Source: a virus. From it: DNA of 47,436 nucleotides. The DNA is taken from the IMG/VR virus record IMGVR_UViG_3300021964_000123, positions 1 through 47,436 of that record, one strand, 5' to 3'. The notes under the pieces were generated by a model that had not been told where the DNA came from, made no database searches, and worked only from the letters and a program-made list of their open reading frames with translations. The translations under genes were made by a program, and so were the position numbers. Every line of letters starts with the position of its first letter. The stretch's first letter is position 1. Below, piece after piece: positions 7,997 to 10,763 of this stretch.

Positions 7997-9133
7997 ATGG
8001 CTGCGAAAGCAAAAACAGACACTAAGCCCGGACGAGTGGCTATGCAAGATTTAATGAAGCTTGTCAATAAAAAGGCAGGCAGAAATGTCGCACACGATCT
8101 AACAGGCGACAACCCAACAGAAGTAAAAGAGTGGATCCCAACAGGTTCGCGCTGGCTTGACTCTATCATTTGCAAGGGACAAGTCGCAGGTATTCCAGTC
8201 GGTAAGGTTTCGGAGATCGCAGGTCTTGAGGCAACAGGCAAGTCTTATATGGCTGCACAGATCGCAGCAAACGCCCAGAAAACGGGTAAGCTTGTCGTTT
8301 ACTTTGATTCCGAGTCTGCTATCGACCCAGACTTCTTGGAGCGAGCAGGATGCGATCTAAGCCAGTTAATGTATGTTCAGGCATCCTCTGTCGAGTTCGT
8401 TCTAGAAACCGTTGAAGAATTGCTCGGAGCAGCAGATCAACAACTTGTATTTATCTGGGACTCGCTAGCATTTACACCATCTGTTTCAGATGTCGAAGGA
8501 GACTTCAATCCACAGTCTTCAATGGCTGTTAAGGCACGTATTCTTGCAAAGGGTATGTCTAAACTTATCATTCCTATCGCAGACAAGCAAGCAACGTTCC
8601 TTGTGTTGAACCAGTTGAAGGCAAACATCCCAAGCGGACCCAATGCACGTATTGTTGCAATGACGACGCCATATATGACGCCGGGAGGTAAAGCACTTCA
8701 ATATTCATATTCTTTGCGTATTTGGCTCACTGGTCGCAAGTCCAAGGCGGCATATATTGAAGACGACAAGGGATATCGCATCGGTTCAGAAGTAAAGGCA
8801 AAGTTAGAGAAGTCTCGCTTTGGAACACAAGGCAGAAACTGTGCTTTCCGTATCCTCTGGGGAACAGATGAAGTAGGAATTCGCTGTGATGAGAGCCTTT
8901 TTGAGGCCATTAAGGGATCTCCCAAACTTACATCGGCGGGCGCTTGGTATACACTAACGATGGAAGATGGTTATAGCAAGAAGTTTCAGCCTTCCAAGTG
9001 GAACGATCTTATGGCGGAAGATGCAGAATTCAAGCAACGTGTTTATGATGTTGTTATGGAAGAGGTGGTGCAAAACTTTGATACACGACAAGGAGACGCT
9101 AAGAGGTTTTACGAGGATCCAGACGGCGAATAA
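7997..9133 (+). CDS. recA: RecA/UvsX-like recombinase
   Basis: The 378-residue protein forms filaments on single-stranded DNA and drives strand exchange. A Walker A motif GLEATGKS lies at 76-83, YFDSESAIDPDFL follows, and LVFIWDSLAFTP is the Walker B strand. LNQLKANI matches the region after loop L1 and TPGGKALQYSYSLRI matches the end of the L2 region. The length is close to bacterial RecA and T4 UvsX. TAAGGAGAAAAGA precedes the ATG at 7997; an earlier in-frame start at 7913 would overlap the methyltransferase gene heavily and lacks such a site. It is followed by a promoter and a folded leader region. Confidence 0.95.
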   Translation: MAAKAKTDTKPGRVAMQDLMKLVNKKAGRNVAHDLTGDNPTEVKEWIPTGSRWLDSIICKGQVAGIPVGKVSEIAGLEATGKSYMAAQIAANAQKTGKLVVYFDSESAIDPDFLERAGCDLSQLMYVQASSVEFVLETVEELLGAADQQLVFIWDSLAFTPSVSDVEGDFNPQSSMAVKARILAKGMSKLIIPIADKQATFLVLNQLKANIPSGPNARIVAMTTPYMTPGGKALQYSYSLRIWLTGRKSKAAYIEDDKGYRIGSEVKAKLEKSRFGTQGRNCAFRILWGTDEVGIRCDESLFEAIKGSPKLTSAGAWYTLTMEDGYSKKFQPSKWNDLMAEDAEFKQRVYDVVMEEVVQNFDTRQGDAKRFYEDPDGE

Positions 9134-9146
9134 AGTAAAAAAGTGC

Positions 9147-9175
9147 TTGACTTTGCTGCATTGCTTTGTTATAGT
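9147..9175 (+). promoter_or_regulatory. Promoter of repeated type, copy 1
   Basis: TTGACT (9147-9152), 17-base spacer, TATAGT (9170-9175). About 55 bases here, from AAAAGTGC to CATATAGGAG, are nearly the same as 10703-10756, with most differences in the spacer. The start point would fall near 9182, just before the folded region. Confidence 0.75.
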
Positions 9176-9200
9176 AAAAAGAGCATATAGGAGTGAGGCG

Positions 9201-9381
9201 GTATTACGCAGGGTTCTACTGAGATGATATACGACCCGGACCAAGGAATAAGAGTCTTAAAAGGGAATACTTGGTCGCTTGCAGGTGAGAACCCTGCCAC
9301 TCCTTCAAATGAAGTTACCCCGATTGTAACGGGTGGGACTGGAAACAGTCAGTTAGGTGGTCTGGTTGCCTAACACCTTTT
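9201..9381 (+). ncRNA. Candidate structured RNA or leader with competing helices
   Basis: The stretch between a promoter and the next gene is unusually rich in perfect stems. GCAGGGTTCT (9208-9217) pairs with AGAACCCTGC (9288-9297) and encloses GACCAAG/CTTGGTC (9239-9245 with 9270-9276). Then come CTTC-AAAT-GAAG (9303-9314), CCCG/CGGG (9319-9333), GACTG-GAAA-CAGTC with a GNRA loop (9337-9350) and GTTAGG/CCTAAC (9352-9374), followed by ACCTTTT. CCGGACCA (9236-9243) can also pair with TGGTCTGG (9358-9365) in the last loop, with one G-U, which would break the inner stem. This points to a folded RNA, possibly switching between two states. I do not recognise a known RNA family. Confidence 0.6.
9224..9373 (+). 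CDS. Possible 49-residue ORF inside the structured leader
   Basis: An ATG at 9224 opens a 49-codon frame ending in TAA at 9371-9373, with a Gly/Thr/Asn-rich second half (PIVTGGTGNSQLGG). A nine-codon GTG-started frame (9193-9222) preceded by ATAGGAG ends one base before this ATG, which could allow reinitiation. The same bases form the perfect stems described for the leader, so coding may be a coincidence. No strong ribosome site lies directly before 9224. Confidence 0.25.
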   Translation: MIYDPDQGIRVLKGNTWSLAGENPATPSNEVTPIVTGGTGNSQLGGLVA

Positions 9382-9394
9382 GGGAGAGAAGAAA

Positions 9395-9709
9395 GTGACT
9401 GACGAAATCAAAGAACTCAAAAAGCAAGTAGAAGAACTCAAAAAAGAGAATACAGAACTACAACGAGAGTTATCAGTCCATAATTTTCTTGATACCGGCG
9501 TTCCACAAGAGCGACTTGATTATCAGCGAGAGTTAAAAAAAGAACTAAACGAATTTCGTCATCTCTACGGAAGTGTCATTTCTCGCATAAACAAGTTGGA
9601 AGACGATACAAGAGCAGCGATAGAGTTTGCCGACCTCGCAGAAGACGATAAGGGAACTGAAATGATTTTAGAGTTTTGCGAGGACATTACAAAGTTGGTT
9701 GGAGAATAA
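9395..9709 (+). CDS. Small coiled-coil protein
   Basis: The 104-residue protein begins with heptad-like repeats (EIKELKKQVEELKKENTELQ) typical of a parallel coiled coil, followed by a second charged helix and an acidic C-terminus. GTG at 9395 is preferred over TTG at 9380 because GGGAGAGAAGA lies nine bases upstream of the GTG. It is the first gene after the folded leader and therefore the likely target of any control there. Function is unknown. Confidence 0.75.
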   Translation: MTDEIKELKKQVEELKKENTELQRELSVHNFLDTGVPQERLDYQRELKKELNEFRHLYGSVISRINKLEDDTRAAIEFADLAEDDKGTEMILEFCEDITKLVGE

Positions 9710-9712
9710 AGA

Positions 9713-10291
9713 ATGAACAACATTGAGGACATTAAAAACAAATGGGAGAAAACAAGGCTTCTAGAAGAACTACCAGAAGACGAGCAATATTCTATGAGTC
9801 AATTGTTAGAAAATGAAGCAAGACATATTCTGTTTACTTACCAAGATGTAAATGAAAGTCAATTAGCATACATTTGTTTTCCTTTAATTCGCAGGATATT
9901 CCAATCATCAGGTTTTTTTGAAGAAGGTGATTGTCCACTCACTTTCACATACGAAACAAGTGCTCTTCCCGCATTTACCTACTTCAAGCCAGACGAAGAA
10001 GAATCAAGTGTTGCAACAACTCAGGTTTATGATTTTGAATCCTCGCCAAACAAAGAAGTGGTTGAGGAAATTTGCTCCAATAGATATTATGCTCTGGATG
10101 CGGAAGTTGGACTAACAGCAGAACTCGCTGAAAGATTCAGAAACGAACTTAACGAGAAACACAAAGGAAAACATCTTATTTTTGGATATCCAATTATGAT
10201 GAGAGAAGAAGACGGCGAAAGGATTTATTCTTATCGTTGTGCGGTTTTACCGGGAGGTTCAAGATTACACGAAGGAGGATATAAAGAATGA
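9713..10291 (+). CDS. Hypothetical protein, 192 residues
   Basis: I do not recognise this protein. It has an acidic N-terminal helix, a middle part with FPLIRRIFQSSGFF and a C-terminal strand-rich segment with FGYPIMMREEDGERIYSYRCAVLPGG. The residues around 150-185 have the look of a phage capsid or virion accessory domain but no active site is visible. It begins three bases after the coiled-coil gene and overlaps the next gene by ATGA, so the three small genes are co-transcribed from the promoter at 9147. Confidence 0.75.
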   Translation: MNNIEDIKNKWEKTRLLEELPEDEQYSMSQLLENEARHILFTYQDVNESQLAYICFPLIRRIFQSSGFFEEGDCPLTFTYETSALPAFTYFKPDEEESSVATTQVYDFESSPNKEVVEEICSNRYYALDAEVGLTAELAERFRNELNEKHKGKHLIFGYPIMMREEDGERIYSYRCAVLPGGSRLHEGGYKE

Positions 10292-10500
10292 ACAACATTG
10301 AGATTCTATATCAAGAATGCAAAGTGTGTGGAAAAACATTCAAACTTCCAACTCGTAAAGAACTGGAAAAATCAATTTTATTCAAGGCTGCCGAGGCTCT
10401 CGGAATTGATATGGGAAATGGTTATACAGGCGGGAATAGCTTGTTGGCAATGTTGAACTGTTCAGTTGAATGTGCGAGAAAACTGGAGAGCGAAGAGTGA
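10288..10500 (+). CDS. Small zinc-binding protein
   Basis: The 70-residue protein carries C11-x2-C14 near the N-terminus and C58-x3-C62 near the C-terminus, a spacing compatible with one zinc knuckle. GGATATAAAGA before the ATG includes a GAGGA ribosome site. It overlaps both neighbours by four bases (ATGA, GTGA). Function is unknown. Confidence 0.75.
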   Translation: MNNIEILYQECKVCGKTFKLPTRKELEKSILFKAAEALGIDMGNGYTGGNSLLAMLNCSVECARKLESEE

Positions 10501-10700
10501 AAGTCGGTGACTTGGTAAAACCTAAACACAAATACTCTAACAACGAAGTAGGGCTTGGGATAGTGTTAAAAGTAGAAGAAAACTTTTTTAAAACTTATAA
10601 TGACTACTTTGAAGACCGCTTGACTATTCACTGGATGCACGGGGAGACAACCTTTGAGCCAGATAGTTATGTTGAGAAACTTGCGGAGAACAAAGAATGA
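10497..10700 (+). CDS. VGDLV-type small barrel protein
   Basis: The 67-residue protein starts MKVGDLVKPKHKY, continues with GLGIVLKVEE and ends with IHWMHGETTFE, which predicts a small SH3- or KOW-like barrel. GTG at 10497 overlaps the upstream stop (GTGA) with GGAG 10 bases ahead, so this start is preferred to an in-frame codon at 10470. Several proteins in this window begin the same way (33915, 45522, 46043, 47175), so it may belong to an expanded phage family. Function is unknown. Confidence 0.75.
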   Translation: MKVGDLVKPKHKYSNNEVGLGIVLKVEENFFKTYNDYFEDRLTIHWMHGETTFEPDSYVEKLAENKE

Positions 10701-10710
10701 ATAAAAGTGC

Positions 10711-10739
10711 TTGACTTTGTTACTTTACTTTGTTATAGT
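10711..10739 (+). promoter_or_regulatory. Promoter of repeated type, copy 2 (uvdE)
   Basis: TTGACT (10711-10716), 17-base spacer, TATAGT (10734-10739), followed by AAAGAGCATATAGGAGG that also supplies the ribosome site for the ATG at 10764. The block repeats the one at 9139-9193, so both units are probably expressed together. Confidence 0.75.
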
Positions 10740-10763
10740 ATAAAGAGCATATAGGAGGGAAAT

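Follow-up and report, generated by a model that had tools for sequence, protein, structure and literature searches.

A tRNA-like leader RNA with two separable modules at the head of small-gene arrays in uncultured phages

We describe a folded leader RNA, encoded downstream of recA in a virus record of 47 436 bases (IMG/VR record IMGVR_UViG_3300021964_000123, analysed at its full length and called the window below), which adds a new family of unusual anatomy to a known kind, the tRNA-like leader RNAs. Module A of this leader is predicted, from comparison of homologous sequences, to be a five-arm cloverleaf of the class II tRNA type, and this structure is well supported; module B consists of three hairpins. 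We tentatively propose, at somewhat less than an even chance, that the two domains make up a 5′ leader, present in uncultured phages, that raises expression of the downstream gene array in cis. The phages are probably marine, to judge by related metagenome contigs.

Locus and layout

The genes around the folded stretch encode RecA, UvdE, a 5′–3′ exonuclease, DnaB and a D12 DNA methylase. The stretch lies on the plus strand between recA (ending at 9133) and a small gene with a GTG start at 9395. It is preceded by a sigma-70-type promoter (TTGACT-17-TATAGT, 9147–9175), which had already been noticed in the earlier note on this DNA; the −10 box ends here 13 nt before module A (9189–9304). Module B (9308–9374) begins with AAUGAAGUUA and is followed by a short U-run (9378–9381), the ribosome-binding site GGGAGAG (9382–9388) and the first gene of the array (9395–9709), whose product, starting MTDEIKELKKQVEEL..., belongs to no known family.

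Homologues and arrangement of modules

A search pattern derived from the last hairpins retrieved a first set of 19 IMG/VR contigs; with further patterns module A was found in ∼27 other IMG/VR records and module B in >30, at about one copy of the leader per genome. A and B mostly stand in tandem, yet they are separable modules. B is found alone at promoters (e.g. in contigs L087, L093, L114 and L115) as well as before a thyX-like gene in the large phages L153 and L157, while A occurs with no B directly behind it in L089 (3211–3328), L105 (13026–13143) and L152. In L163 module A sits within the loop of the second hairpin of B, and in some copies of B the loop of the first hairpin is enlarged by ∼43 inserted bases. 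Fused and deleted forms of the leader were seen in L175, L099 and L103. In L099 (4172–4208, minus strand) and L175 (2880–2925) the 5′ half of a tRNA is fused directly before A, in L175 also to the first bases of B; these fusions are recombination scars at a tRNA.

BLASTN against cultured phages gave chance matches only, and H1, on inspection, was no homologue. Two exact pattern scans of bacterial and archaeal genomes had no match, and neither module was present in the 45 to 50 records of recA relatives searched. Rfam scans found no family at threshold anywhere in the window and none near the folded stretch at permissive settings; among the window and its relatives, gathering and permissive thresholds together gave just a sub-threshold tRNA match to L103. 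In the openly accessible literature we found no description of this RNA. The Rfam scans, together with the compensatory changes described below, bear out the proposal of the earlier note that a structured leader RNA of no fitting RNA family follows recA.

Cloverleaf of module A

The structure of A was assessed by RNAalifold, pair counts, a covariance model, a sequence-only control and the Rfam tRNA model applied to the L103 copy. RNAalifold, run unguided on 19 homologues, returned arms in the order of a tRNA, with 7 pairs in the acceptor, 3 in the D arm, 5 in the anticodon-like arm, 7 in the variable arm and 5 in a T arm set directly on the acceptor. In the window these are 9189–9195/9298–9304 (acceptor), 9198–9200/9207–9209 (D), 9211–9215/9233–9237 (anticodon-like, with a 17-nt loop), 9239–9245/9270–9276 (variable, 24-nt loop) and 9281–9285/9293–9297 (T, 7-nt loop). 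Among the 19 homologues the cloverleaf is paired in 99% of cells, with eight pairs changed on both sides; when partners were slid by 1 to 3 columns as a control, 36–44% of cells were paired. The compensatory changes fall in the acceptor, variable and T arms. The D and anticodon-like arms are nearly invariant in the close set, and their support comes mainly from L163.

This copy and another distant one, in L152, were recovered by the covariance model of A (E = 3e-5 and E = 5e-26, respectively), and both re-pair arms with other bases: TGAAGCG/CGCTTCA and GGTAAG/CTTACC in L152, CCGTT/GACGG in L163, where six of seven acceptor positions are paired in the model alignment (one pair is lost). The same model (R1) matches phage genes for tRNA-Leu, Ile, Pro, Met and Gln end to end with 14–29 bits; its best tRNA matches are to tRNA-Leu, arm for arm, at 25–29 bits. 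A sequence-only model built from the same alignment gave no hit to the genes for tRNA-Leu, Ile, Pro and Met, thus the resemblance of A to tRNAs lies in the cloverleaf. In the opposite direction, the Rfam tRNA model (RF00005) aligned end to end with the L103 copy at 23.1 bits (E = 0.0071), below the gathering threshold of 29 bits; it had no match to the window copy. The folding energy of 9188–9305 is modest (z = −2.0, with 5 of 200 shuffles as good) and that of the whole folded stretch unremarkable (z = −0.73).

Like a class II tRNA of the tRNA-Leu type, A combines a 7-bp acceptor, a 3-bp D stem, a 5-bp anticodon stem, a long variable arm and a 5-bp T stem stacked on the acceptor. Unlike it, A has a 17-nt anticodon-like loop instead of one of 7 nt, a 24-nt variable loop, a 6-nt D-loop (GUAUUA) without GG, no conserved T-loop and no CCA encoded after the acceptor, and ARAGORN does not call it as a tRNA. 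As CCA is not encoded and the D-loop here has no GG, the three-dimensional fold of A may depart from that of tRNA.

Some other structured RNAs turned up on the contigs of relatives. At 1438–1515 of L163 there is an odd tRNA-like gene (33.5 bits with Rfam) that is not called by ARAGORN and apparently has no normal D arm. A long non-coding stretch of L152 (4339–4720), located between the divergent A and a tRNA-Gln gene, contains the long-range pairing GGTACTAC...GTAGTACC and has no Rfam match.

A contact between two loops of module A

Conservation of the loops of A is inverted relative to tRNAs: two of seven positions are invariant in the T-loop, as against 14 of 17 in the anticodon-like loop and 16 of 24 in the variable loop. 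The T-loop sequence TTCAAAT occurs in L103 and L111 only, and the anticodon-like and variable loops are more conserved than the acceptor, variable and T stems. In all 19 copies AGAY of the anticodon-like loop can pair with RUCU of the variable loop (AGAU at 9222–9225 with GUCU at 9254–9257 in the window). The single pair that varies (38–67) is C-G in ten copies, U-G in eight and U-A in one, and the equivalent site, read by eye, is CAAGC:GCUUG in L163 and GAC/GUC in L152. Support for the helix consists of one varying pair and the L163 copy; the case that the two loops pair with each other as a kissing helix is good but not conclusive. Kissing between the D-loop and the variable loop (GUAUU:AAUAC) was also considered and dropped, as L152 alters the D-loop with no change in the partner.

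These results bear on the two-state switch or pseudoknot that had been read from the window at first. The 10-pair stem of 9208–9217 with 9288–9297 is indeed present in the sequence, as is the GNRA-capped hairpin at 9337–9350 (loop GAAA); CCGGACCA (9236–9243) does have its complement in TGGTCTGG (9358–9365), while TGGTC, its other proposed partner, lies at 9272–9276, one base away from where it had been placed. The mutually exclusive long pairings are not conserved, however. Over the 19 homologues, 84% of the cells of the 10-pair stem are paired and none of its pairs has changed on both sides; the stem fails where the T arm of relatives is GUGGG/CCCAC. The cloverleaf makes use of the same bases, and its local T-arm hairpin covaries. 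In the alternative pairing, CCGGACCA matches UGGUCUGG at eight of eight positions in two common haplotypes and at seven, six or four of eight in other combinations, and permuted partners of the CCGGACCA/TGGTCTGG pairing do equally well (P = 0.48). This pairing shows no coevolution; a pseudoknot-like contact is likely to exist between other loops, at 9222–9225 with 9254–9257.

The earlier note had also remarked on a 49-codon frame over the same bases (9224–9373, plus strand). The window and a few near-identical relatives keep this frame open, which is what could be said for a real small gene with incidental stems. About half of the copies have ACG or ACA in place of its ATG, and many of these stop after codon 11; the tails differ after B inserts, so the frame is not conserved as a gene. 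The stems compensate and the frame decays, the opposite of codon-like conservation with uncompensated stems; comparison of homologues refutes the coding reading, to which we assign next to no probability.

Module B

Module B runs in the order AAUGAAGUUA, P1 (CCCG/CGGG, 9319–9322/9330–9333), the variable P2 (9337–9341/9346–9350, capped by GAAA) and P3 (9352–9357/9369–9374, loop UGGUCUGGUUG), and ends just 5′ of the ribosome-binding site. The stem of P3 is fully replaced between copies and still paired (GUUAGG/CCUAAC, GGCGAG/CUCGCC, GAUUAAG/CUUGAUC), with changes on both sides at five of six pairs, and its loop keeps GGUUG. For the covariance model of B we used an alignment without insert-bearing copies and without L102 and L163, the two most divergent ones; read from the sequence, P3 is GGUCAG/CUGACC in L102 and GAUAGG/CCUAUC in L163. 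In most promoter-bearing copies P3 is followed by 4–7 T, with the ribosome-binding site within a few bases. The run is T4 in the window and T4–T7 in most relatives, and is absent from L113, L171 and the copies of the thyX type. The large phages L153, L157, L159, L160 and L174 have B with no U-run, and in L153 and L157 an extra hairpin (GCCCG...CGGGC) precedes the start codon of the thyX-like gene. One contig with a copy of B, L096, also carries a tmRNA gene (1815–2117, tag ANDNVENFEDFAIAA).

The P1 loop (9323–9329, AUUGUAA; CUUGUAG and CUCGUAG in relatives) resembles the anticodon loop of threonine tRNA, and the inserts fall after position 37. Mimicry of a threonine anticodon by P1 (loop NUYGUAR, with UGU or CGU) is suggestive in most copies and broken in L096, L102 and L111.

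Promoters and gene arrays

Most relatives with a recognizable promoter have 7 nt between the end of the −10 box and the acceptor stem of A or the AAUGAAG of B, and the −35/−10 scores of these promoters are 10–12 of 12. With such a spacing the transcription start should coincide with the first base of A or B or precede it by a few bases; in the window, where the −10 box ends at 9175 and A begins at 9189, the transcript would start a few bases before A. The promoter recurs, together with its first transcribed bases and at 88% identity, at 10711–10760 (plus strand) before a UvdE-family endonuclease gene, with neither A nor B.

The genes downstream of the leader differ between phages and are unrelated to each other. 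One and the same small gene can head the array behind A/B in one phage and lie inside it, with a ribosome-binding site only, in another; the first array gene of the window is itself found inside other arrays, there without A/B. One leader precedes different genes and one gene follows different leaders. In this distribution the leader goes with the head of the array and not with any one gene.

The arrays themselves (window 9395–10700 and L083–L115) are shuffled sets of small genes of the MTDEIKEL, MNNIEDIK, MNNIEILY, MKVGDLV and MKQCQFIR types. Several array genes share a near-constant C-terminal tail of the KLAENKE-like type; its codons include the ribosome-binding site of the following gene and the ATGA overlap with it, and this tail is possibly a junction for cassette swapping. 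Genes behind A/B in L089, L105 and L175 start with a recurring N-terminal motif, MKITK(R/T)QL(R/K)xI(I/V)(R/K)E.

Likeness to known RNAs

GOLLD and ROOL are single-copy structured phage RNAs, some of them near tRNAs; A/B are far smaller and had no Rfam match to either. No match supported a resemblance to the hammerhead or to the group I core, and there was none to the Rfam T-box model. Few tRNA-like mRNA leaders are known from bacteria or phages. There is a likeness in placement with the yjdF riboswitch, a tRNA-Lys-like leader which also puts a tRNA-like fold upstream of the ribosome-binding site. It has four helices with conserved D- and T-loops, in contrast to A, where there is a fifth (variable) arm and the T-loop is the least conserved; the yjdF model had no match in Rfam scans up to E = 10. 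The nearest experimental precedent for a cis-acting leader comes from a study of that riboswitch, in which tRNAs upstream of the Shine–Dalgarno sequence increased in vitro translation by a factor of 2 to 6.3, with little dependence on the CCA end (PMC9142559). Module B resembles the put RNA of HK022, a short hairpin leader at a phage transcript start; put RNAs are ∼70 nt long, with two stem-loops, and lie near early promoters (PMC9378689). B differs from it in having three hairpins, another conserved sequence and often a second, tRNA-like module.

Possible functions

We infer a function of the leader in cis on expression, and our tentative model is as follows. The leader would act on whichever gene heads the array. 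Its tRNA-like fold would close off the 5′ end, which a start at +1 would bury in the acceptor stem. Translation, perhaps also stability, of the first array gene would be raised, as translation is in vitro by tRNAs upstream of Shine–Dalgarno sequences (PMC9142559), and the conserved contact of the anticodon-like and variable loops would probably bind a host or phage factor. Copies of A without B, and the L152 copy, which lies among tRNA genes with no evident role in an mRNA, speak against a cis-acting leader, and the U-runs that follow P3 may point to a terminator instead of a simple leader.

If the U-runs do mean termination, A/B could be an attenuator or riboswitch in which a ligand or factor is sensed by A (and P1/P2), and P3 plus the U-run forms a conditional terminator before the array. 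The 4–7 T directly 5′ of the ribosome-binding site in most promoter-bearing copies fit such a device, and loops of A that are more conserved than three of its stems are aptamer-like. We consider it unlikely, since no alternative pairing able to open P3 is conserved, P3 was not called by a terminator scan and L113, L171 and the thyX group have no U-run; the mutually unrelated downstream genes also argue against a metabolite switch. The copies of A without an adjoining B (L089, L105 and L152, the latter among tRNA genes), B alone at transcript starts, the separate promoters that follow in L102 and L163 and the likeness to tRNA-Leu can be accounted for in another way, namely that A is a trans-acting tRNA-like decoy for a host protein that handles or cuts tRNAs, excised or transcribed alone, with B as the remaining 5′ end of the mRNA. 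This, too, is rather doubtful: A has no encoded CCA, though the tRNA-Thr adjoining the L099 copy ends in CCA, and most copies of A have a gene in the same orientation immediately downstream.

The exchange of leaders and genes, together with the fused or deleted forms in L175, L099 and L103, would also be expected if the conserved stretch were mainly a recombination anchor for swapping small-gene cassettes, with RNA structure secondary. The compensatory changes, which keep RNA pairs despite changes in DNA, would be needless for a DNA anchor, and we regard this explanation as improbable. It is very improbable that B is an RNA like put of HK022, which would, free of protein, modify RNA polymerase to read through terminators in the array; put itself acts by way of the zinc-binding domain of the polymerase. 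A length of ∼67 nt, consecutive hairpins, location at +1 of a phage operon and few copies per genome are in its favor; three hairpins instead of two, the scarcity of terminator-like sites in the array (two found versus 1.3 expected by chance) and the presence of B in mid-operon before thyX, with no promoter, are not.

A more speculative possibility, which we consider quite unlikely, is that A is a repurposed tRNA mimic, its cloverleaf locked by the kissing helix, that binds a host protein handling, modifying or cutting tRNAs and serves as a switch for the array under tRNA attack or as a decoy. If true, phages would have a new class of RNA that acts in tRNA-based conflict.

Under the cis-acting leader that we prefer, a widespread tRNA-like RNA that starts the transcript, and whose conserved face has shifted from the T-loop to the anticodon–variable contact, would amount to a compact new form of expression control for accessory genes of phages, and module A would supply both an RNA bait and a covariance model for finding the factor that it may bind.
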